This document shows positions 1,741 through 49,310 of a DNA stretch of 64,000 bases, one piece after another. The stretch is from Ectocarpus siliculosus. Its lineage: Eukaryota > Sar > Phaeophyceae > Ectocarpales > Ectocarpaceae. A program made the translations under genes and the position numbers. Below the pieces are notes generated by a model. It searched no databases. It was not told the origin of the DNA and worked only from the letters and a program-made list of their open reading frames with translations. Every line of letters starts with the position of its first letter. Positions within the stretch are counted from its first letter, which is position 1. The stretch lies in NCBI GenBank assembly GCA_000310025.1, contig FN648658.1, positions 2,520 to 66,519 on the forward strand, written 5' to 3'.

Positions 1741-3128
1741 GCAGTTTAGTAATAGTGGCGTTTTGTGGGTGGGGGAGGCCACTCGCGTGTTCTGTAGCAT
1801 TCTGCGCTGTTTGGCTCTGCGTGGTTTGGCTGTTTGACGGCGGTCAGGAGCTTGTCGTAGCGCGGGGATCTGTAGACGAGAATGTGGACGGGGGGAGCGG
1901 GGGGCAAGACTGACTGGACGGTTTTCTCGCAGCCGGCGGGGTTACTCCTCCAATTCTTGCCGCAGGGCCGGGCAGTGCATGCCAAGTCGGGAAAGATCCA
2001 ACATGACGTGGTAGGTTGCTTCATGTACCACATATGCGGAGATACAGAGCCTCGGGTGTGGGGTGGAGAACGGCTTGGCTGGGGGGCTGGGTGGTAGGTC
2101 CATGGCGGCAAAGCACGGGTTGGCGTTTTCGCCCGGAAAATGGCGTCCTACCTGCTGTGTTTGGCATTTACCCGGCCCTCTACGAGGTGCAAAATAAACA
2201 TAAAATTCAGAAAAAACTCGTGTCTTGACGCCTGACGCTGGCACGTACTCGAAAGCTGTCCCCCAGAAATGGCATGGCCACGCGTGAAGATATGCTGGCC
2301 TACTTGGTGGTACGTGACTTGCCTTCGCGAAAACTGAGACATGCTCCAAAAAACAAGGAGAGGCGAACACGCCCCCGAGGATGGTTGGGTGTAGTTAGCC
2401 AACGACCAAGAAATCAAGGGATTCAGCCCCTAAGATAAGCTATACAGCTTGCGAGAGAAGCGTGTCGTCATGTTGCACGCGTGCTAACGTGTACCGTTCA
2501 TGACTGAAGACTATTCAAACGTGGTGCTCACCCCGACTGCGCTTTGATTATCTTCTGTCTTTTGTGGGGCGGCGTCCTGGATCCTACGATACCCCGAATA
2601 TGACTTCCAGGGAAGGCGGCAAAATAGCTCTGTCTCCGCACGCGTTCGAACTCCGCTCACAATGAAAATAGTTGTTTGCGCTGCGAGTGCCGCGGTACCT
2701 TTGCAACCGTCATGCACCCGGACACACACACCAAGGAGGTGGCTCCGACAGCTACACAAACATACGTGCCGTCTGCACGCGGGGCCCCCATCGCCAGCTG
2801 CTCCATGGGACAGCGTCAAAGCGATTGATCGATCGAATGGCGAGCCTAGTCCGGACTCCAGCACAACTTGTTACAACAGCACGTTCCCTTTTCTCTTTCC
2901 CATACGGACCCACCACACGGCGCCCTTTATACTCTATGAACATTAACTTTATACGTGTGTACTTTACGGGATGGGCGCCTGGCGATGAAGAACGAAGGGA
3001 GGATCGGTGTCAACACAACAAGGGGGGCTCGAAGTAAGTAAAAAAGCAAGCATGCCGGTGGGGGCGACGCGAATTGTGGTGTTTACCCCTCGTCACCCCC
3101 CCCCCGCGCGCGCGCTATTCTGGTGCTA
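1741..3128. other. Intergenic region between convergent genes
   Basis: This stretch lies between the stop of the RPT1 gene on the plus strand and the last exon of the glomulin-like gene on the minus strand, so it should hold both 3' UTRs. I see only short unsupported open frames and a C/G-rich run near 3090-3115. No conserved domain, RNA gene or clear repeat is visible. Confidence 0.5.
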
Positions 3129-6100
3129 TTATACTACCGCCAGCTCAAGCTCCTGAAGGCATTGCTGCGCAGCGTCCTCGAGAATGAAGAGCCGGAAGTG
3201 CTCAGGTCCAGCGTTGTTGGCCGTGATCACAGCTCCTCGCAGCTCGTCCAGCAACCCCTGAGTTAATTGCGTGCGGGTGTGCGTGTTTAGTGCGTGTGCG
3301 ATTCTTGAGGCTGCTGCGTTTTGGAATCGCGTGCGACAAGTTCTCCATCCAGCGTTTTCAAATAAAGCTTCAAACGAATAGGTTGGAGTTGTTACTTGCT
3401 GCTCGACCCTCTCTGGAGGAGGGGAGGTTTGCTTTGCGACGAGTGTCTTACCGCTGGCATATCGCGACGATCAGCATGAGCAGGAAACCCGTGAGGCCTA
3501 CATGCAGCAAAAGCAAGACAGACCTACACGAAGAGCAAACATTAACACTAATACGAAACTATTCCACTGTGAAAAATGATGAAAGGACACCTCCGTCTAC
3601 ATAACCAGCGACACACGAACACCCGACAAAATAAAAGCGGATGCATCATACACCTCCTACCCACCCACCTGCACGAGCAGTCTATTCTGCAGCAGCTTCT
3701 TCGGCTCGCGAAGCCCGAGCCTACCCCACGCCGCCCCGGCCTCCGCCCTACCACTATCCGCCCGGGCGCCGCCGACGGCGTCAAGCTTGTGCGCGTACCG
3801 GGCCAGCGCCAGCCCGCCGGTACGGCTGTCCATGTCCGCCATCAGTGACGCAAGCGGCCCTCTCCTGCACGCCCTCAGGAGCTGCCCGCACACCACGTCG
3901 CCCGCGAGCGCGGACGCGAACGGGGACGACGACGACGATGGTGCGGACGGCGCAGCTTGTTGTTGTTGTTGTTGCTGCTGCTGCTGCTGATGTTGCTGCT
4001 GCTGCTGCTGCTGCTGTTGTTGTTGCCGCTCCTCCTCCTCGATCCCACACTGCCGCAGCGCGCGGTCGATCTCCCGGCGGAAGGCGTCGAGCAGGAGCCC
4101 CCTCGCGTTCGGCCAGGGGCACAGCTCCACCAGGCGCCTCAGCAAGCGGAAGCGGGAGGCTTCGTCGGCGCCGCTCAGGATCGCCACGAGGGCCGCGTGC
4201 CCGCGAGTGCGGAGGCCAGGCAGCGGGCAGGACACCATCACGTCGACCAAGACCTGGAGGAAGCCGGCAAGGTCAAGGCGGTGGGGGTCGAAGGGTCTCC
4301 GTCGCGACGAAGGACTTGTGCCTTCGCTGGCGGTGCTGCTGCCGGCATCCCGCTGCTGCCAAGCCGCCACGTGGCGCCGAAAGGGGTGGAAGGGGGTGGG
4401 AGGGGGGCGGAAGATCGTAAGATAGTGGTGGGAGAGGAGGTCCGGGCTGTCGAACACCTTGTACCTTGTGCGCTCTCTTAACCTTACTAGCCTTTTACTA
4501 CCCGTAAAACTCGTGATTGTGTCCTGATGTGCGTGTGTGCCCGTACGGAGTGTCTGTATCTCGTGAGGGAAGAAGCGGGTGCGATTCCATTTCTTTCGTA
4601 TGTGCAAGCAAAGATCTCGATTCTCAACTCAAATACAAACACAAATTCAAACGACGAATGTGACGTGCACAGGAAAACAACAAGCAATAACGCGCCTCTT
4701 GTCGGCCCCCGCCATTCCAAGCACCGCCTCCGCCGCCGTCATCACCCGCACCGTCGATCTCTTCGTCCCCGGGTTCCCAGTCAAAAGCATAGGCGCCCGA
4801 GCGATCGGGAAACCCCCCGAGGCGTTCGGCCACGAAGCACGCCAGCTCCAACCCTTTGTTGGCGACACGCCTCGACCTGTCCCGCATCAGCACCTTTTTT
4901 TTTAACCCGTTCCGGGACGAATGGAAAAGAGTGGGAAGACGTGGGGCGGGGGCGTACTCATGTGCCTTAGTTGTTAAGGCCATTGACCACGCGTCCAGAT
5001 GTGGGTCGGGGGGGAGCGGATTGGTGTGAGCGGCGGCCTGAGTATGCCCAGGACTGATGCACTCCTCATCGGATGCTACAAAAAGACAAGTACCCAGCGA
5101 TAGACGATCCGTTCTCCACAGAGAAGCCGCCACGAGACCTGACGTTCGGCTGCAACCGAACTAGGGAACCCTCACACTCTTGGTGTAACAGCACCTCTGT
5201 TTCGGAGCCATGGCGGTGCGATGATACTTGAATCACGCTCCCGTGCACCACGCGGGCTTCCGGTATTTAGTACTGACATACGTGTGTGCGTGGTGCTAAT
5301 CAGCCCGATGGCGGGCTGACCTCCCCTGTTGCCTCCTACCTCCGCGTGCGGAAGAAACAGCCGGCGTTCCGTCCGCCGTGACCACACCAGGGGGAGCCAC
5401 TTGTCGCGGAGCCTCGGCTCGCAGGCGACCTGCCCGGGTGCAGGCAAAGAAGACGAACCTCTCAGCAGGCATTAAAACGCGCTCACCACATCTTCGCGAC
5501 CAAAGAGCACAAACAAGCTGCTAAATCATAGTGATTCATGGTGGACGGAGGGAGGGGGTGGTGTCTCAAAGCGACCGCTGGCGTAGCGAGGCCGTCTCGG
5601 AGCACGTTCTACGTGCGCTGGAAAAATTATTCGCCTCAAAACGCTCAACAAGTGCCTTCCTACCTCCGGTTTACGTTGGAAGCTTGCATGAGCACGACAC
5701 CCAGCGACAAGCGAAGGGAAAACAACTTCCGACCCCCTTGATCTACATACCCATGTACCTCCCGCCCAACAAAGCGGTCATCAAAAACCACCGCGACGTG
5801 CGGAATCTCAACCCGGCTCGTTGATCTCACTCACCAGGTATGCGAGGGTCGACACCCCTCGGAGCGTCCACGGCAGAGCACCGTTAACGGCAGCCTCTGC
5901 AAGCCCAACCGCCCCGCCTAACCTCGCTGCCGGCAGTTGCGACTTCCCCTCTTCTCCACCGCCCTCGCTCTTTCTCCTCCTCCGCTTAACCCCGCTCGCG
6001 TAGGACACTCGGCACCCGTGGAGCAGAGCGAACCGCAGGTCGAGGGGGCTATCGACGACGATTCCGATCAGCCGCTCCTCGGCTCTTGCCAGCGATTCCC

Positions 6101-14969: not shown

Positions 14970-17900
14970 TTACTTGACGAACTTCGCCACCTCCCCCAAC
15001 CAGTTGGTGTACTCGTTCTGCTCCTTTTGGTCGGCGTACATGCAGATGAACGCCGCCAGGTCGTCGTCGATGTTGCGCTCCTTCAAGTAGTCGTACAGCG
15101 CGTCCTGCGGGAACAAGACGACAAGAGAAACACAAATGGTTCGTCGGTGCTACTGTGAGGGGGACCGCCTCCGCGAGAATTAAGAATACTCAAAGAGCAT
15201 GTAATAGAGAAAAGGGCTTCGTGCCTCTATCCCTAACTCCCAACCCGTACCGCCTACTAAACCCAAGATTAATGTTCTCGCGAAGGCTGCTGTGTGAGAG
15301 GGGCGAGCTCGACACTAATACTGTACATGCATTGAAAGCCACGCGAGCGCGTTGCCGCGTGCCTGCGTTCAGGACACGGTTGCCGAGTCTGCGCGTCGAC
15401 CGCGTCTAGATTATCAAGGGTGGTACACGAGACACGTCCATGACGGTTGTTGTGAAGCCGTCATTTTCAGTAGGAACGAAAAAGCTGAGAAGGGGGGGGG
15501 GGGGAGCCAATCACGGTAAGAAAGAATGAAATCAACAGATATGGGGTGTGTAACGGCCAAAGTCGATCTCCACCCCAAAACACTACGCGAAAACCAGCAC
15601 AAATGCTCCATATTTTCAGACGAGTGGAGAGCTTCAACCAAACAAAGGCACAGCAAGGGACATTCGTCATGAAGAACAAACAAGCCGCGCCGCTCGTCGG
15701 CGTGTCCGACCGGTAACGTCGAGTGCTTCCGCACGACGCGACGCTACACCCCCCCCCCCCAACCGCCGCCCACCTGCAAATCCGGATCGAGCTCGTTGAA
15801 ATCAGGACCTCGGTAAAGGGAAAAGTCCCACTCCACGTTTGCCGGGTTGATGCGGATGCCGTGCACGGCGATCGTGTCTGTGGCCGATCCCGAGAGAACC
15901 ATCTTCTTCGCCCCCTTGGTGATCGTTGCCGTGAAGCGGTAGCCTGTCGCGAAAGACCGGGGGGGGGGGGGACTCAACGGTGTGCTAAAGAGTATTAAAA
16001 GTCGTTCCACCGCTGACTTCGTCTCCCTCTGGAGATTTCACCTGGGTTTGAGCGATATTTTGTGTGTATTTTCCATTCGATACTTGAGAGCATGAATAGC
16101 GACATTTCCACGTCCCTTCAGACCGTTCCTCTTCCGCCTGTAGCGGCCACCATACTTCGACCGCGGTGGGCGGAGGATTGAAGAATAACCACAAAACAAA
16201 AAGCCGAGGGCGAGGACCGATACGATATCCCCACCAACGTGCACACCCGAGTGGGCACTTCTTTCTCTCACGGTGCTCGTATGCATGTGTATCTACGCAG
16301 CCGTCGTTGAGTCGATTGAGACCACGGAACAAATCAATCGCACCAGCCGCCCTCCATGAAATACCATACAAAGACGGCATGACCCTTTGCCGAGGGCTCT
16401 CATCATGCACCAAGACACACTTTCGGACCGCACCCATCACCGCGAGACCGGGGACTTGCCTGGGCCGATCATGTCGTCCTCCCCGCCCTCGTCCTCTTGT
16501 CCCTCCCCGCCCTTCCCTTGCTGCTGCTCCCCCGACTCCAAACTCAAGTCCGAGTCGTCCTCCAGGTCGTCCTCCCAACCGTCATCGCCGTCCCCCTCCA
16601 CGTCGCAGTCGAACTCCACCGATACCTTCAAAAACGTACCACACCCGTGCGCGCCGAAAAACACGACGACCGGAAACAGCAGGCGTTGGGGGTTATGCCT
16701 CCGCACCACCAGGTAAACAGCGACATTCATTCAACAACTTGTCAAGAAAACAAAAGTCACCATCAGCTTCTGTCGTTGGTGAACCAAACAGTCTCGCCGC
16801 TGGCCGTACTGCTGTTGGCGCATGTCGATCCGACCGCACCGTTTTGAGCGGTGTTAGTGTAGAGACGAGACAACATCGACTCGCGCCATTTCGTTTTGTG
16901 CGTCGATCACATGCTGCAAACGGCAGCGCTGCTGTGACAACAAACCGACTCACTGGCTGCAGCCAGGTACAAGCAGCGACTTTCAGACGACGAATATCTC
17001 AACTGCTGTGCAAAATTGTATGTAAGGCATGTTTCAATTTACGATCCAGGCCGTGATGCCAGACATGGCGATACGTACCCCCCGCCCCCCCCCAACCGCG
17101 CGACGCACAGAGAGAGGCCAAAGAGACGGGGATATCGTAAGCAACTATAATAGTAGTTCTGGCGCAAAGAGTGAGGCAGGACCGCCTTCGCCATGGAGCA
17201 ATATTAGTCTATCAACTTCAGAGGGGGTTTCGTTTCCCTAATCCTAATCCTAACCCCGACCCCGTACCCCCCAACTCCAACCAAGCTAAAACGTCCCGGC
17301 GAAGGCTACCGATTCTTCGCCGTCGCCGCCGTGGGGTTCACCTTCTCATCGCCAACGCCAGGTCCGAAGAGCCGTACCAACGACAGCCCGGGCTCGTCCT
17401 TCACGGTGATTCCCTTCTTGCCCAGTTCTTTCACCATCGATGCCACATCTGGGTAGAATAGCAATGTTCGTTGCACGGCATGTTGTTGAACAAAACGTTG
17501 ATTGCAGAACAAGCGCGCGGTGTATGGCAAGAGAAGGGAGCGGGCGGGGAGTGGGGGCTGCACTGCCCACTACTCACCCTCCTATGCATCTCAAAGAAAG
17601 GCGGATGATCGCTGTTTGAGAGTGTATACATGTAGGCTTGACAGGGAGAGAGGGAGTAACGTTGCCGCAGGAGTGCGCACGTGGCAAGTCACGAGTGGCG
17701 CACCGTAGGGCAGACGTCAAAAGGGACACACACAAGCAACAAAGATACCGTATATGACACAAGATAACACACACCCTGAACCGATTTCCAAAGCTCGATT
17801 ACTCCACGACGAAGAGGATGCACAAACAAAACGATACATTTTCGAAAATTTCTCGACGAGACGATTCCAACGCTGCCGTTTTCGGCGCCGTGACTCTTCC

Positions 17901-20003
17901 TGCTGTTGAGAAATCGAGCTTTGAAAATCGGCCAAGGGGGTGTGTTATCTTGTGTCATATACGGTATGTCGTAGATAACGGAACGAAGGAAGATGTGTTG
18001 ATAGTGGGGGACAAGTCAGAGCTCAAAATCGGGTGAATAGAATGGCAAGAGAGGTTCAGCAGTTACTAGAAAGATGCTCTGAGTTGAGACTCTCTGCCCT
18101 TGCCAAACTCGTCGATTTGAGTACCAGTCTTACACGAGAAGAGAGCGAGAATCTCGTGTCGTGTGAAATGGTCAAAACCAGCTGATATATCGGTGAACAG
18201 CGACTACAGCGGTACTGCTGTGGTTTTCGGAGTACAAGGCCCTTCCCCCGCCGGCGATCGCCGAAAACACCGATTTCTGAAAAATGTCACCGAAAAAACA
18301 GCTGAAAAAAAAATCGCCGGAAAAAAAAAAAAGTCGCCGATTCTGAAGGGGGCTCCGCCGAATCGAAAAAGATGTCGCCGATTGTCGCCGATTAAATTCA
18401 CGGTGCCCCCTGTACCTCCTTCGTAGCTCTACAAAGCAGAAGGCTATGACATATAATAACATGTTATTACATGTCATAGCTTTGTAGCTCTGTACAGCTG
18501 CACAGCTTCACACACGGCTGAACGGCGGTGCTATGTCGTCGCCTCTTAGCGGTATGCAAGCCTGCTCTAATAGTAGGTGGGATAATAGCAGTGAAAGCGA
18601 AGGGGATTCGGACAATGAGGTGCAATTTGTCCGCCAAAAGACAAGTGCCGCGGCTGCCACCAGCGGCGACAGCGGCAGCGGCAGCGGCGGGAGCAGAGGC
18701 AGCGGCAGCAGCGGCACTGGCAGCGGCACTGGCAGCGGCAGCGGCAAAGCCGCACCACCTGCTTCCGGTGCAAGAGCTTCGTCGCGGGTCTCTTCTGCTG
18801 GTTCAGGTTCTTCTAGCAGCAGGGCCTCTCTGCACGCCAACACAGCGTTGGTGGCACCACTTCCGCCGAAACTTCAAAATCGATGCCGCTTTTGCAACCA
18901 TCCTCTGCGTTCATGGAACGAGTGTTTTCCATCCTGCGGTGTTGCTTTAATGAACGACAAGAAGAGAGCGTGTACAGCGACCGCACTGCTCAAGTACAAC
19001 AGGGGCAGGGTCCAAAGTAGCAGAAGAGAAGGAGGAAAGCGCCGCAGATGCCAACAACGGCGGCGGCGGTAGCGACGAAAGCGATGACAGCGATCAAGAC
19101 AGCGACTGAAGACCTGTGATTTGTAAATTTAATGCTGATGTCTTTATTGTGTCGTAGGTCGTAGGAGCAAAACATTTTGTTGCCCCCAAGTCGCGATCCT
19201 ATCCTATTTCAGAATTTTTTCGATGTTGAGTGCAGGTTAGGAATATTGCATGCTGTTATGCTGTCTCTAGCAAAGAAATAAAAGGGCAAACTACTTCGTT
19301 CGCTAATCGCCGGCAGGTGACCTCTGCAGCAGTCCAACAGTCGACAGCCTCGCGACCCGCTCGTTTGTGTGTACTAGAAGTACATGTTGCGTCGCGAAAG
19401 TCGCTTCGATGAAGTCGCTGAAGTTAAAAATAGCATAGCACAAGGTAGCAGCCGAAGAAAGTAAGAAAATCGCCGAAAATCGCCGAAAATGAAACAGGAC
19501 TCACCGAAAAAACATACTGAATCGCCGAATGTCGCCGAAAAAGGGTTTTTTTCCATCAGTAGTATTTGCCGAAAAAAAATCGTGAATCGCCGAAAAAAAA
19601 AAAGAAAAGTCGCCGGCGGGGGAAGGGCCTACGGAGTACGCAACTGCCCTGCTACCAACCGTCAGATCGGACCCCTCTGAACCACCCAAGAAGATTTTGG
19701 ATTGAATCCAAATACACCCAAGGCCAGATGTCCACGACCTCTGCGAAGTGCTAGCCTCACTTGAAGTTAACCTGCTCGCTGCTGCACACCTCACACACCT
19801 TCGTCAAACGCAACGAGACGCTCCTCTTCGATTTCCGCCTTCAGCACCTCGCTCAGGCTGCTTGCGCATCGCAGGTTCTTGGGGGCGGAGGAGACAGCAG
19901 CAGCAGGAACGGAGGGGGAGGAGCACTTGGTCGTCGCGGCTGCAGCTCTTCGGACCAGTCCCGCCGAGGGACGGGCTGCGGCACGAGCGAGATTAGCGAG
20001 CAT
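14970..20003 (-). CDS. MAM33: Mitochondrial p32/MAM33 (C1QBP) family protein
   Basis: p32/MAM33 proteins form acidic homotrimers in the mitochondrial matrix, with roles in mitochondrial translation and respiratory maintenance. Exons are 20003-19799, 17448-17342, 16625-16460, 15943-15774 and 15104-14970, all phase-consistent, giving 260 residues, normal for the family. The N-terminus MLANLARAAARPSAGLVRRA is Arg/Ala-rich without acidic residues, as expected for a matrix presequence. Family landmarks are SEVLKAEIEEER, EKVSVEFDCD, the acidic GDGDDGWEDDLEDD segment, FTATITKGAKKMVLSG, and the C-terminal DALYDYLKERNIDDDLAAFI ... YTNWLGEVAKFVK. The third intron begins GCAAGT, a GC-AG intron confirmed by codon phase. 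Intron 1 is 2.35 kb and full of mobile elements. Confidence 0.93.
15162..15296 (+). mobile_element. Small TIR element with telomere-like core, copy 1
   Basis: It begins GGACCGCCTCCGCGAGAATTAA and ends TTCTCGCGAAGGCTGCTGTGTG, so the ends GCCTYCGCGAGA/TCTCGCGAAGGC are inverted. The middle has CCCTAACTCCCAACCC, a degenerate CCCTAA array. It sits in the fourth MAM33 intron, 57 bp from the acceptor at 15105. No coding capacity. Confidence 0.75.
17179..17310 (+). mobile_element. Small TIR element with telomere-like core, copy 2
   Basis: Diverged copy starting GGACCGCCTTCGCC and ending CGGCGAAGGCTACC, with CCTAATCCTAATCCTAACC and CCGTACCCC in the middle. It lies in the second MAM33 intron, about 31 bp from the donor side of the exon ending at 17342. 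Confidence 0.65.
17745..17967. mobile_element. 223-bp MITE-like element with long terminal inverted repeats
   Basis: The left end ATACCGTATATGACACAAG is perfectly mirrored at the right end (CTTGTGTCATATACGGTAT), and the inverted match continues with mismatches for about 50 bp, through AACACAC and CAAAGCTCGAT. There is no open frame. It is in intron 1 of MAM33. A fragment with the shared internal motif AAAGCTCGATTACTCCAC occurs near 31480-31524. Confidence 0.85.
18425..18490. repeat. Near-perfect palindrome inside the hAT-like element
   Basis: AGCTCTACAAAGCAGAAGG... is mirrored by ...CTTTGTAGCTCT around a centre near AACATGTT, including the arms CTATGACAT and ATGTCATAG. It would form a hairpin of about 30 bp just upstream of the internal ORF at 18533. 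Confidence 0.8.
18533..19072 (+). CDS. ORF inside the hAT-like element, Ser/Gly-rich with Cys/His cluster
   Basis: The 179-residue ORF starts MSSPLSGMQACSNSRWDNSS, then an acidic stretch (SESEGDSDNEVQF), a long Ser/Gly repeat, and a segment with regularly spaced cysteines: CRFCNHPLRSWNECFPSCG ... KRAC. The C-x2-C-x-H ... C-x3-C spacing could bind zinc. The end is very basic. It is wholly within the element bounded by the target duplication, so it is probably an element-encoded accessory protein or a remnant. I do not recognise the family; it may be spliced or untranslated. Confidence 0.4.
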   Translation: MSSPLSGMQACSNSRWDNSSESEGDSDNEVQFVRQKTSAAAATSGDSGSGSGGSRGSGSSGTGSGTGSGSGKAAPPASGARASSRVSSAGSGSSSSRASLHANTALVAPLPPKLQNRCRFCNHPLRSWNECFPSCGVALMNDKKRACTATALLKYNRGRVQSSRREGGKRRRCQQRRRR

Positions 20004-20395
20004 GTTTGCTCCGGGTGGCGGGGTGGACAGGCGGGACCGATCTCTCCACAACACAGACAGGTGCTTGAACGGTGGCGGCCAAAACAAAACAACAGGGGGT
20101 ACGCCGGTCGCATCTAAATTGAAATACAGTGTACGTGACGGAGTGATACTGCTGTCTGTGTGCCACGGACCACAGTTGACAGTTCCGTGGGCCGTTGGGC
20201 ACTTGACTCTTGACAGAGTGTCCAGTGAGACAGAGTATTGTTGCTCTGTGCTGCATCAGCGTAGCAGCACTCGCAACCAACCACGTTCAGCATCTCAGCT
20301 ACTGCCGACGTCATCTGGGGTATGGCGGGAAATATTAATATTTCGAGAAGAAGTGCAGGGGGAAAAGCAACGAGTTACGAGTTGCTCGTGGAACA
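20004..20395. promoter_or_regulatory. Divergent promoter region between MAM33 and the GET4-like gene
   Basis: About 390 bp separate the MAM33 start codon (minus strand, 20003) from the first identified coding exon of the GET4-like gene (plus strand, about 20396). The head-to-head layout suggests a shared upstream region, though upstream GET4 coding sequence may lie here in another frame. I see no clear TATA box. Confidence 0.4.
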
Positions 20396-29642: not shown

Positions 29643-32600
29643 TCAGAGGGAAGTCGCTCTACAGGCCTCACAGTTACATTGGAAACCGCGATTGTTCACC
29701 GCCGGCCCCAGTCCGACCGTGCCCGGGGCGGGGTACGAGAGAAAAAGCTCCTGCCCTGCCTCGATGCTCTTGAGGGAGCACACGAACACGCGCTTTTCCT
29801 GGGACTGCCCCTGCCCGACCGCCACCTGCGTGAAACGAAGGGCGCCAAGAAAGACGTTGGGATAGGGTACAAGACGGAGGGAGGGGGGGGTGTCACCAAG
29901 CTGCGCCATGTTCATACAAAGGAAAAATATATCACGGTATCGATAGAGTATGCACACGTCTATGGAGAAAAAGAGCCTTGTAAAGCACGTCAGTCTTTGC
30001 ACGGTGCGAGGGAGTACTTGTAAGAACAACGGGCCATGTGTCCACTCTCTTCCTTCCTCGAAATTGGGGCGATATGCAGCAGAGGATTCAGGCACCGCAG
30101 AAAACCCGACCAACAGCAGTCGACTCCAACAATAGTTAAAGACACAACTGTTGTCATGCACGGGTGCCGCTCGGCTGGGGCAGTGAGAGGAAGCCCCTTC
30201 TCCTCTCTTCACAACAGAAAAAAACAAACGTCCAATCTTCCTAAGCACGCCTGTACAGAGATACACGAACTGAGCAAAATAGAATTCAAACGCGTGTGCT
30301 TGGTGCTCTCAGCACACTCCACAATGTATCTATCACCCACCACACCCTGAATGATATCTACGGTAGAAACCGTTGGAAACAGCACGCGCTGCTCACCGTG
30401 TGCAGGTACGTGTTCGGCTGGCACGAGTGGTTGAACAGGCGCGGGGAGCAGCCCTCCGCCAACGGGTCGACCGTCACCGAGTCCAAGTAGCAGTCTCCCG
30501 CAATTTGAACGACACAACCCTGCCGTAGCGACGACACCGGGGGAGTCCAGAAAAGGGAAAGGGTGGCGTGGGCGGGAGCGTGGATAGGGGATGGGGGGGG
30601 TGGCTGACCTATTTGCGTGCCCCAAACGAACTGATTTGACAGCACACGATATGTAACACCACACGATCGTACCCGGTCATACCATCCACCCACGCCGTGT
30701 CCACCACGTCAACGTTGGGTATAGTCGCTGCTGCTGCTGCTGTCGACGTAGCACGTGCTTGACAGCAAAGAAAAGCAAGGGCAGGGAACACTACCTCACC
30801 CCAGCTTGACTTGAGGGTGTGTGAACACATGTACCACGGTTGCTCGTTTTCTACACATCTTTTCATACCCACGGAAATTGCCGTCGAGGCATCAGGCGAG
30901 GGTGTACGTGTAGCACGCACCATTGCTCCAAACAATTGTTGCCAAGGCCATGGACGTGCACAAACACAAGGTAGACTACAGGTGGGCCGATGATACAGAA
31001 GCTCACAAAACGAAGCACCCGAGTACGCAAAACACGCTGCTCCACTTCCATCTCTTTGTGTATGAAGAAATAGAATTCATGCGCCTGAGAGAAAACTATT
31101 AGCTATGCCCATCTTTGCCCTCCCTTGCTCTCACGTGGAAGTCCATCTTGCGGTAGGCCGCTACCCGCTGTCCGGCCACCGTCCTCGTGACCCTCTCCCC
31201 TGTATATTCGGCCAATGCATCCATTGGCTGAATAATGTCAGCGGCGAACACGCCGCAACCCTGTCATTATCGACGTTTCCACAAAATTACGAGGGGCGCG
31301 GGTGAGGCACGTGTGTAGTATGTATTGTGATAGCAACTCGACGAGTATCGTCGCGTTGCCTGTCTGAAGCTTTCCAGTTTTTTAGCCGTTAATAAAGTCG
31401 AGGGCGCACACCGCGACACGCTCGCACACCGAGCACGACAAAGAGTTCCATACACAGAGTAGATGACAGAAGATATCGCACCCCCTGAACAATTTTAAAT
31501 GTTCAAAGCTCGATTACTCCACAGCTGATACCGTGGCCGGGCGGCGTTGGCACCGATAGCTTTCCGACACAATCCTACCGTTTGACATCCTCGTCGTCGT
31601 GGACTAACATTATTAGCTGTGAATATTGATGATGCGATAATTATTAAATAGCTGTGAATATTGATGATGCGATATATTATAAGAACATCGAGCACCCTCC
31701 ATACTCCGGGCGCCCCGTTGGTCTAGTAGGTAACTTCAAAACCTTCTAGAGGTCAGGTTAGGGGTTCGAATCCCGGCGTAAGCGAGGTTTTCTTGCAAAG
31801 TGAGTTCTTCTCTAGCTTGCGCTCTTGGCTTAGTGGATGTAGCGCTAGTTCGTGTGTACACAGAGGGAAGAGAGTGCTGAACTCTTCTCGCATTAAATAT
31901 CGAAGGCAAAGTACGGCAGGAGGGGACGGTAGAGAGAGGCTCTTCCGTGTGACCACGGGTTGGAATAAACGTCACTAGTGCTGTGAGCGTTGATTAGAAG
32001 TGAAGACAAAAAAAAAAAAAAGCTCCAGGAAGTAAGTTACAGCAGTAAAGTAAGTAAGCTACTGTTGTAGTTGAGTTGAAACCTCTCATTACCCATCCAT
32101 GAAGAAGTCGTTTTATGCACAAATAGTAAAAAAAAAAAGGGCTGCAAAAACTATCCATGGACGAACCCAGCAGTGCCGTTGTTGTTGTCTTCACAATTAA
32201 TTACAAAAAACCGTTCGTTCTGTTCTCTCTACCCAGTACCTTCTTGTACCTTCTTCGTCTGTTCGCACTATTATGTATGAGATTTACACTGTAGCTCGAG
32301 ATCGGCATTTGAGACAGGGTCGGGCAAGGGGTGGGGGCTATGCGAATAAAAGTTCCACCCACCCACCCACAGATATTGAAATATGAGACTGAAGCTAAAG
32401 CTTCAGAATTATCCCCCCTCGTTCTCTCACGTGAAAGTTCATCTTGCGGTAGGTCGCTACCCGCTGTAGGGTCGCCGTCTTTTTGATCTTCAGCCCCTTG
32501 AATTCGGCCAATACGTCCATTGGCTGAATACTCTTTGCGGCGAATGCGGCGCTAAAGGGTATTCAGCCAATGGATGTATTGGCCGAATTTACGGGGGAGA

Positions 32601-35600
32601 GGATCACGAGGACGGTGGCCCAACAGCGGGTAGCGGCCTACCGCAGGATGAACTTCCACGTGAGAGCGAGGGAGGGCAAGATGGAAGATGGACAGAGCTA
32701 GAATTTTCCCCCAGGTGCATGAATTCTATTTCTTCACACACAAAGAGATGGAAGTGAAACAGCGTGTTTTGCGTACCCAGGCACGTCGTTTTCTGGTGTA
32801 GTCTGGCTGAGAAGCTAAATGTACCTTCCAAGTACCGTTAAACTAAACTCGGAAGAAGCACGCCTCTTTCCACGGGTCGCAATCTTGTCCGCGGGTCAGG
32901 TCGGGACCCGTAAAGTATAGGCAAGGTAACGACCCGCCAACACATCTGCCCCTGACTCGCGCGGTTGACCCATGGGTCATGCCTTACGAAATATTCCTGC
33001 GAAAAAATCCCCCTCAAATTTCAAGCAGACCGATGAGAGAAAAGCCGATGAAACCAAGCATCAGAACCCTAACAGCTGCACGTATTAGTGACAAAAAATG
33101 AAACAACCACTCGTACTAATAGTGTAAGCATCAACAGCAAGGGTTCGAAACAAACACACATGTGCCTACGTCCCTCGGCTTCGAAGGACAGGACCTGCGA
33201 CAAACTCGCTAACACCCAGCCGTGAGAAGACCTGTCCCTCCTACACAGTGCCTTCAGTCTCACCTCCACAGCCGATGCCCCCGTGAAAGGTCAGTTAGGC
33301 GATATCTTGCCGACGAGTTGCTAAAAGGTGAGCTGGCCATTTCCTGCGGTCTCTCCGTCGAGTCCCGTCGACTGGTACGCCGCCAACAGCAGCTCGCACA
33401 CAGGCACCACCTGATTGTGAGGGAGAGCATGGCACGGAGTTCAAGGCTTCAGAAATTTCGAACGTATGTGCTGATTCTGATTCAAGTCTACAAGTATGCG
33501 ACGGCAGCTCTCACGGTTTTGGCTCTTGCTCTCCGGCGACCCTTCAACTCATTTCTCCCAACACCACGCGCGCTGTAACACATATGCATATGTACAACAA
33601 CCCCTTCTTGTATTCCAGATCAACCGCTTGAGCTAGGGAATGAATACATACCATTAGCTGACAACAGAACCCTTACCGGCTTGGGGGTTTGAAGGTCTCT
33701 GACCGGCGTGGCGTACACGACGGGCATGGCGTCCATAAGCAGGCGGAGGCTGGCTCGACGGGCGCACGAGGGGGGGGGGGGGGGGTCCCGTAGGGGATTG
33801 TCAATCAGGCCGCACGACGAGGGAACTCGTGTTGTAACGTACGTACTTCGTATTGGCTTACGGAGGACTAACGCATGCCTCACGCGGAAAGAATGACGAA
33901 TGTTCCGGCCACAGTTGGTCTGACGGTCGAGGCGCTCACCCTCACACACCTGTGCACTCGCTCGACTCGCCAAACCGGACACTTTCCTGCCCCTCCCCTT
34001 CACTCAAGCACACGTGTTATTCTTACAGGGGAGAACGACGCACATACATGAGAGTCAATCCCAAGCTGTGGCACGGACCACCGTACGCACTGCCAAACCA
34101 CGCCGCAAAATTGCATGCACCCGACACGCCACCCGTAACGTACTAGTCCCCTGTGTAGGGAGTAGCTGTGGCACTCGTAGCGCCCTCGCACGGCCGCCGC
34201 ATCATCTCCGCTTGCGCCCTACCCGCCGCCGCCCTGCCCGCGGCCGCCGCCGTCCTGCCCTCCGCTTCCGCCTCGTTGTTGAGACGCGTCTGCAACACCG
34301 CCGGGTTATTCTTTTCCAACGCCCTGTACTTGGACAGAACCTCCTCGTCCACATTCAGTTCACATGCTTTGATGGCATCAAAGAGCGGGTGGGACGTTCT
34401 AATCACGTCTTCCAAGAGGAGGGGCGCCCCATCCCCCCTCGCTCTTACCGTTGCCACCACCGTCCAATCCGGATTTTGCTGCTCGTTGGGAGGCCGTGTG
34501 GTCGCGCCCGTTCCCGAGGTCATCGATACAAACCAAATAACAAAAAAACAAAAGAGACAGCGCGGGAAAAACAACGGAAGAGATGACACGATTTGTCAGC
34601 AGCAGAACGGCTGTCTGTTCCTTATCGCTACCGAACACCAAAGCAAGCAACTTTCGTTTCATCTTCTTGAGGAGAAGAAGCTTGCTTGGGAGGAGGCTCA
34701 AATTTTGTTCGTGTTGGCCCTTGGCGTGCCCATCAGAGCGACCGTTCGTCTTCCACTTCCTGTGCTGATGTGCTTGGGCGAGCGAGCGAACGAGAGAGAA
34801 AATTCACCGGCTGTGTCATTTCCAGCTTTCGCTCTTGCTACTATAATACAGTACTGGTGTACAAGAATGCTTTGTTCAACATTTTGGCTCGTGTGCGGTC
34901 AATAAGGGAGGGACGATGCGCCTTGTTGATGACCCTCGTGCTCGAGTTACGTGTTTGGTATCACCGCACGTCCATCCCCTCGTGTACCGACACGGGAGAG
35001 GTCAATTTCGCGTACAACGGAAGCCTGAGTTGACAGACTTTGCTCGTGAAGGTTGCTCTGTTGTTATGGGTTTCATGCGAGGTCCACAAAGACAAAAGGA
35101 CCACCGGTCTTCACTCGATCGGGGATGTATGCACTCTTTCACACACGCAAAGACTGCTGTCAACCTAGGCTGTACCTGGTAAACCAGACTCGTCCGCCCC
35201 ATCTTGGTGCAATTTGAACAGAACCACGCGTCCACCCGCGCTCGGAAAGTCGCCGCGAGCTGGCTGTCTGTTCCAGCCGGAAGACAACGCCGGTGGAACG
35301 CTCTGGGGCACCCATCGCAGCTGATCAGGTCTTCGGGTCTTCCGTAGACACGGGCAACTGACAAGGTCGTGCCACCCACCAGGACGCCCTTGTTGCCGCA
35401 GATGCTGCACGGGGAAGAGCAACACGTCAGGAATTAGTCAGAGAGAAATTTTGTTGTTTTGTTGCTTGCTTTCCTTTGAACCCTTGCTGGCCTAGACTTG
35501 AAACGCACACCAATCTAACAAAGCACGGTCGGGTGGGCGTGAGACCAACCAAAACCGGGATGGGGGGGCAACACGCCGAGCGGCAAGCCGGGAGTATCGC

Positions 35601-47303: not shown

Positions 47304-47458
47304 CGGTAGCCTTGGCAGGGTTTTTCGTATTATGTACACATGTTGGATAAAGCATACAATGGGGGAAGTTGGGTTAGGGTTAGGATTAGGGAATAGGGTC
47401 TGCGTACCTCATTCCAGTTCAATTTCCTCATAAACTTACTTTCTCGCGAAGGCGGCCC
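47304..47458 (-). mobile_element. Small TIR element with telomere-like core, copy 3
   Basis: Inverse orientation to copies 1, 2 and 4. It runs from GGTAGCCTTGGCAGGGTTTT to TTTCTCGCGAAGGCGGCCCC, with GGGTTAGGGTTAGGATTAGG and AATAGGGTCTGCGTACC inside. About 100 bp match copy 4 closely. Its edge is only about 8 bp from the splice acceptor of the WDR82-like exon starting at 47295. Confidence 0.85.
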
Positions 47459-49164: not shown

Positions 49165-49310
49165 GGGACCGCCTTCGCGAGAAATTAAGTTAATGAGGAA
49201 AACGGTAGAACAGGGAGGGGGTACGCAGACCCTATTCCCTAACCCTAACCCTAACCCAACTTCCCTGATTGCATGCCGACATGTCGAAAAACCCTGCGAA
49301 GGCTACTGTG
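49165..49310 (+). mobile_element. Small TIR element with telomere-like core, copy 4
   Basis: Starts GGACCGCCTTCGCGAGAAA and ends CTGCGAAGGCTACTGTG, with three CCCTAA units (CCCTAACCCTAACCCTAACC) in the middle. TGTGCCAG occurs just outside both ends (about 49158-49165 and 49309-49316), a possible target duplication. It is about 97 bp from the donor of the WDR82-like exon ending at 49407. Confidence 0.85.

Follow-up and report, generated by a model that had tools for sequence, protein, structure and literature searches.

A very probable non-autonomous hAT element in Ectocarpus siliculosus, whose cysteine cluster comes from a hAT motif in another frame

We analysed a 64,000-nucleotide stretch of the Ectocarpus siliculosus genome (hereafter the window) and found that a 1396-bp element within it is very probably a non-autonomous hAT transposon that arose when an element encoding a transposase lost its interior. 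The element has paired ends and flanking duplications, is present in several copies, and carries homology to the hAT C-terminus. Its conspicuous cysteine cluster is this hAT C-terminal motif, read in the wrong frame. The positions of the features are collected in Table 1.

Table 1. Features of the element and of its flanks (positions in the window)
Feature	Position	Strand	Basis or remark
Left target-site duplication CGGAGTAC	18228-18235		Direct sequence
Very probable non-autonomous hAT element, 1396 bp	18236-19631	+	Inverted repeat, 8-bp duplication, same ends in four other copies
Left terminal inverted repeat	18236-18257	+	Sequence and copy comparison
Left subterminal region, 7 CRCCGA	18236-18425	+	Motif count
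Palindrome, 22-nt arms without spacer, 91%	18440-18483 (arms 18440-18461 and 18462-18483)		Sequence
179-residue ORF	18533-19072	+	Probable N-terminal transposase remnant, then hAT C-terminus out of frame; not a conserved protein
hAT C-terminal motif LLQPSSAFMERVFSILRCCFNERQEESVYSDR	18889-18984	+	Not in the frame of the ATG at 18533
Next piece of the hAT C-terminus (ALLKYNRGR...)	18965-19030	+	In the frame of the 179-residue ORF; 73% to C60 across 22 columns
Acidic tail of the hAT C-terminus	19002-19106	+	Third frame; 56% to C60 across 36 columns
Right subterminal region, 6 CRCCGA	19427-19631	+	Motif count
Right terminal inverted repeat	19610-19631	-	Sequence
Right target-site duplication CGGAGTAC	19632-19639		Direct sequence

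Boundaries and setting of the element

The two flanking copies of CGGAGTAC are exact, confirming the intact 8-bp duplication that the original prediction had described around a 1.4-kb element. The 22-bp terminal inverted repeats proposed with it are perfect over 21 bp (18237-18257 and 19610-19630); the 22nd, outermost base is mismatched (A on the left, T on the right), and the four other copies described below have T on the left where the window copy has A. Exact 21-bp inverted pairs lying 100-5000 bp apart have 17 start positions in the window, which amount to four places, and only for the pair at 18236-19631 does an exact 8-bp duplication lie 0-3 bases beyond the repeat. By comparison, 50 order-1 Markov resamples of the window contained no exact 21-bp inverted pair 100-5000 bp apart.

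The window holds other inverted repeats as well. An exact repeat of 28 bp (17745-17772 and 17940-17967, beginning ATACCGTATATGACACAAGAT) encloses about 220 bp and resembles a miniature element; a word from it, ATATGACACAAGATAAC, recurs in the right-hand flanking sequence of the C14 copy of the 1396-bp element. A 23-bp exact inverted pair (31149-31171 and 32623-32645) is spaced about 1.5 kb apart, and two stretches in line, 22 and 23 bp long and exactly inverted (47363-47408 and 49220-49265), about 1.9 kb apart, in both cases with no adjoining 8-bp duplication.

Within the element, the subterminal clusters of CGCCGA type that had been predicted are evident. CGCCGA or CACCGA (CRCCGA) occurs seven times in the first 190 bp and six times in the last 205 bp, always on the plus strand, and once in the 1001-bp middle, versus 81 occurrences (1.29 per kb) in the remaining 62,604 bases of the window. 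As to their role, we infer that these repeats are probable binding sites for the transposase. The 66-bp palindrome noted earlier is also present, and 66 bp is a fair measure of its extent, since the copies match each other in reversed orientation over element positions 190-266; in the C14 copy the left arm is mostly absent.

The insertion had been placed in an intron of a MAM33 gene. Matches to MAM33 (PF02330) do lie nearby on the minus strand (15003-15149 and within 15747-16037), and the presumed first exon sits beyond the element as seen from them. The presumed flanking exons (17309-17569 and 19794-20009) gave no match in a Pfam search, and the position inside a MAM33 intron is therefore likely rather than established. 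Elsewhere in the genome we recorded 87 matches to the light-harvesting family (PF00504), with clusters on contigs C92, C232, C488, and C16; for one light-harvesting protein, the best PDB match was FCP17 (325 bits), with fucoxanthin chlorophyll a/c proteins next in rank, which points to light-harvesting proteins of the fucoxanthin type.

Copies and relatives in the genome

We searched one genome assembly (189.5 Mb, 492 contigs) and identified at least five near-full copies of the window subfamily, namely the window copy and those on contigs C343, C4, C14, and C19, all with both ends; copy numbers are lower bounds because 40 of 143 candidates were scored. The 8-bp duplications differ in all five (CGGAGTAC, GTTAAAAA/GTTAGAAA, GCTGCTGC, CATAAGAC, and GCTACACG) and are exact in four, that of the C343 copy having one mismatch. 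Pairwise identity among the five is 94.8-99.2% over ungapped columns, with the C19 copy aligned without its nested insertion. A genome search with the element ends, suggested as a check of the original prediction, thus returns several copies at differing targets, and together with the related elements described below it excludes a single-copy locus with no relatives.

The nested insertion in the C19 copy (L034, C19:304000-308500, at about 1935-3738) is approximately 1.8 kb long, with ends CAGTGGGGGGCCCTCTATAGTGCCGG, lies at a TA site, and is presumably pogo/Tc1-mariner-like. In the C14 copy (L005), CATAAGAC stands once on the left (1495-1502) and twice in tandem on the right (2914-2929), which may have been left behind when an earlier insertion was excised. 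An empty site had been proposed as a further check. A query of 150 bp made by joining the flanks of the window copy had no match beyond each of its two halves, so that this one assembly, with its N runs or gaps, yielded no empty site; of eleven insertions, the search covered the one in the window.

An end pattern spanning three related kinds of ends had 109 matches in the genome, versus 3 for a reversed-pattern control. One of the related kinds marks elements of about 800 bp, whose duplications are exact at C477 and C21, with no exact one at C33. The second is TAGGCCTGTGCTCCGTAGGTGA, with C17, C12, C32, C11, and C28 as the members examined at both ends. All five of these TAGGCCTGTG subfamily members have exact 8-bp duplications, and between their TAGGCC ends they enclose hAT C-termini. 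A script search gave no end pair with duplication at loci L027, L028, L029, and L030, nor at L025, whose right end falls outside the locus.

The element at C28:895836-908853 bears the exact duplication GGCATCAG on both sides and contains several long transposase-like open frames, one of which is the hAT C-terminus. With regard to an autonomous element in this genome that would have the same termini, the inverted repeat of C28 is related to that of the window copy, not identical with it, and the genome search revealed no transposase-bearing element with an identical inverted repeat among the matches listed; the autonomous relative with the same repeat that had been anticipated did not appear there. 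The distance from the ATG to the hAT motif is 3648 bp in C28 (counted from its first long frame) versus 356 bp in the window copy, and about 3.3 kb lying between the C28 start codon and the motif are, judging from the two sequences, missing from the window copy. The middle frame of C28 (L025:3419-4027) has no Pfam match, and its sole full match in the genome is itself, with three others at 28% identity. At about L025:5434 the C28 sequence ceases to follow C17, its sister copy, and it follows it again from C28:908776, a break and resumption that point to a large insertion near the right end of the C28 element.

The cysteine-rich open reading frame

The 179-residue ORF with its cysteine cluster exists as predicted, but it is not kept as a protein among the copies. 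Among the five copies, the frame that opens at the shared ATG is 179, 190, 192, 180, or 30 residues long (190 and 192 in C343 and C4), with differing ends, and the C4 frame is shifted in its middle. The ORF had also been described as unknown and not a known transposase. It is no novel protein: the same DNA that gives the C-x2-C...C-x3-C cluster reads LLQPSSAFMERVFSILRCCFNERQEESVYSDR, a hAT C-terminal motif, in another frame. When six-frame translations were compared by blastp, with filters off, to a tiny database consisting of four hAT C-termini of this genome, the motif frame was 96.9% identical to C60 over 32 residues (E 2e-17) and 93.8% identical to C28 over 32 residues (E 1e-14). A six-frame search of the whole genome with the C28 C-terminal ORF as query also recovered the window copy, with E 6e-11 and 83% across 36 residues. 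Across 25 codons of the motif frame, the window copy and C28 differ at 12 sites, of which 2, 1, and 9 fall at codon positions 1, 2, and 3.

A Pfam search with the 179-residue ORF gave a single sub-threshold match (TSP1_CFP_C, E 0.21). For 18860-18988, all matches were again below the cut-off (DUF6011, E 0.005; TSP1_CFP_C, E 0.05; zf-C2HC5, E 0.06); this query was translated in the frame of the ORF and not in the hAT frame, and so did not probe the motif itself. In C60, the frame starts as in the window copy (MPSPLGGVEARLDNSSESEGNSEKEVQFV), the hAT C-terminus is unbroken, and the junction is different. From this like start, the first part of the ORF is probably the N-terminus of a transposase. 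The ATG and the motif are in different frames in C60 too, so that the link of this N-terminal part to a transposase is one of likeness and position only. Overall, the best reading of the ORF is as the decayed remains of a transposase, presumably without a role.

For the P element, the truncated transposase KP represses transposition. By analogy, C14-type copies might make a protein consisting of the N-terminus and the hAT tail that damps transposition, in which case the window copy would be a decayed repressor element. The C14 start codon and hAT motif do share one open frame of 180 codons, so a short protein could be made from this copy. However, four of the five copies, the window copy included, have the motif and the ATG in different frames, and the dimerisation region is only partly left, which makes a repressor most improbable.

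Even less probable is the accessory protein of its own, with a genuine cysteine cluster, that the element was originally suggested it might carry. The ORF is open in the window, and frames from the same ATG are open in C343 and C4; yet the cysteine stretch is 97% identical, in the hAT frame, to an unbroken hAT C-terminus, neither the length nor the end of the frame is kept among the five copies, and Pfam offers only the one sub-threshold match. We therefore rejected an accessory zinc-binding protein.

hAT assignment and proposed origin

In the PDB, a profile built from four related C-termini matched four distinct sequences at E <=10; each is a transposase, and the whole-sequence E-values are 3e-4 to 5e-4. 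Two are named Hermes (6dww and 8edg); the other two, 2bw3 and 4d1q, are named only 'transposase' and we take them to be Hermes as well. The Hermes alignment spans the W...SSA..ERxFS region, with E 0.0019 for the best single stretch. Against the PF05699 cut-off of 21.4 bits, one of the four C-termini scored above (24.5) and three just below (19.5, 17.9, and 20.7); the scores of 19.5 and 17.9 belong to the two closest. A whole-genome PF05699 search listed 20 places, among them the distant relatives C9, C12:508553, and C13 (29% identity to the C28 C-terminus). The closest relatives (C28, C60, C17, C11, C8, and C32:600868) were not among the 20 listed. The window copy itself retains its hAT C-terminus as a frame-shifted fragment only and lacks the RNase H-like catalytic core.

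These findings support the assignment of the element to hAT and agree with the predicted non-autonomous hAT element, which is present in at least five copies at different 8-bp targets and has relatives encoding a hAT C-terminus. The 8-bp duplications are accompanied by short inverted repeats of 21-22 bp and, in the relatives, by the C-terminal dimerisation region (PF05699 and the Hermes profile match). The ends of hAT elements follow a loose consensus, YARNG, rather than a strict one; those found here start TAGGC and depart from it at the fifth base. That the element might belong to another cut-and-paste superfamily, with the hAT-like stretch arising by chance, gains something from this departure, from the C28 middle frame without a Pfam match, and from 8-bp duplications being found also in P, Merlin, and KDZ/Zisupton elements, but is hardly credible given that C17, C12, C32, C11, and C28 enclose hAT C-termini between TAGGCC ends with exact 8-bp duplications.

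An internally deleted hAT element remains by far our preferred reading. The window-type element would have arisen from a transposase-encoding hAT element as Ds did from Ac. Both ends are kept, with the inverted repeat and the subterminal CRCCGA repeats. Of the transposase gene, roughly the final 70 codons and probably the beginning are retained, and the middle, where the catalytic domain is expected, is missing. We infer that the element moved by cut and paste with transposase supplied in trans, 8 bp being duplicated at the target. Since the remaining reading frame is shifted, the 179-residue ORF would be an accident.

In the Ac/Ds system of maize, internal-deletion derivatives of a hAT element keep the ends and subterminal arrays, and their transposase gene is internally deleted. 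The window element is alike in its ends, subterminal arrays, 8-bp duplications, and several copies at different targets, and apparently in its internally deleted transposase gene. Unlike in Ac/Ds, no autonomous element with the identical inverted repeat was seen among the matches listed, the repeat of the transposase-bearing C28 relative is related but different, and both ends carry their subterminal motif, CRCCGA, in a single orientation. The likeness to Hermes lies in the C-terminal profile of the relatives, with its W...SSA..ERxFS region; unlike Hermes, the window copy retains a 32-residue stretch and short pieces spread over three frames.

Our literature search found no publication on this element, which does not mean that it is unpublished. 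The hAT content of Ectocarpus is summarised as 4 families, 128 copies, 13 of them intact, and 0.05% of the genome (PMC12477816, its Table 1), figures that refer to the 200.2-Mb Ec32 assembly and not to the 189.5-Mb assembly searched here. The element is likewise hAT content, and the comparison is with these summary counts only.

The element is a further case of a well-known kind, the hAT internal-deletion copy. It documents, in a photosynthetic eukaryote, a hAT lineage in which internally deleted derivatives occur beside a relative that bears a transposase, hAT elements being scarce in the brown-alga transposon study by its tabulated share of the Ectocarpus genome. It also serves as a caution that a seemingly novel cysteine-rich transposon ORF can turn out to be the out-of-frame translation of a known domain.
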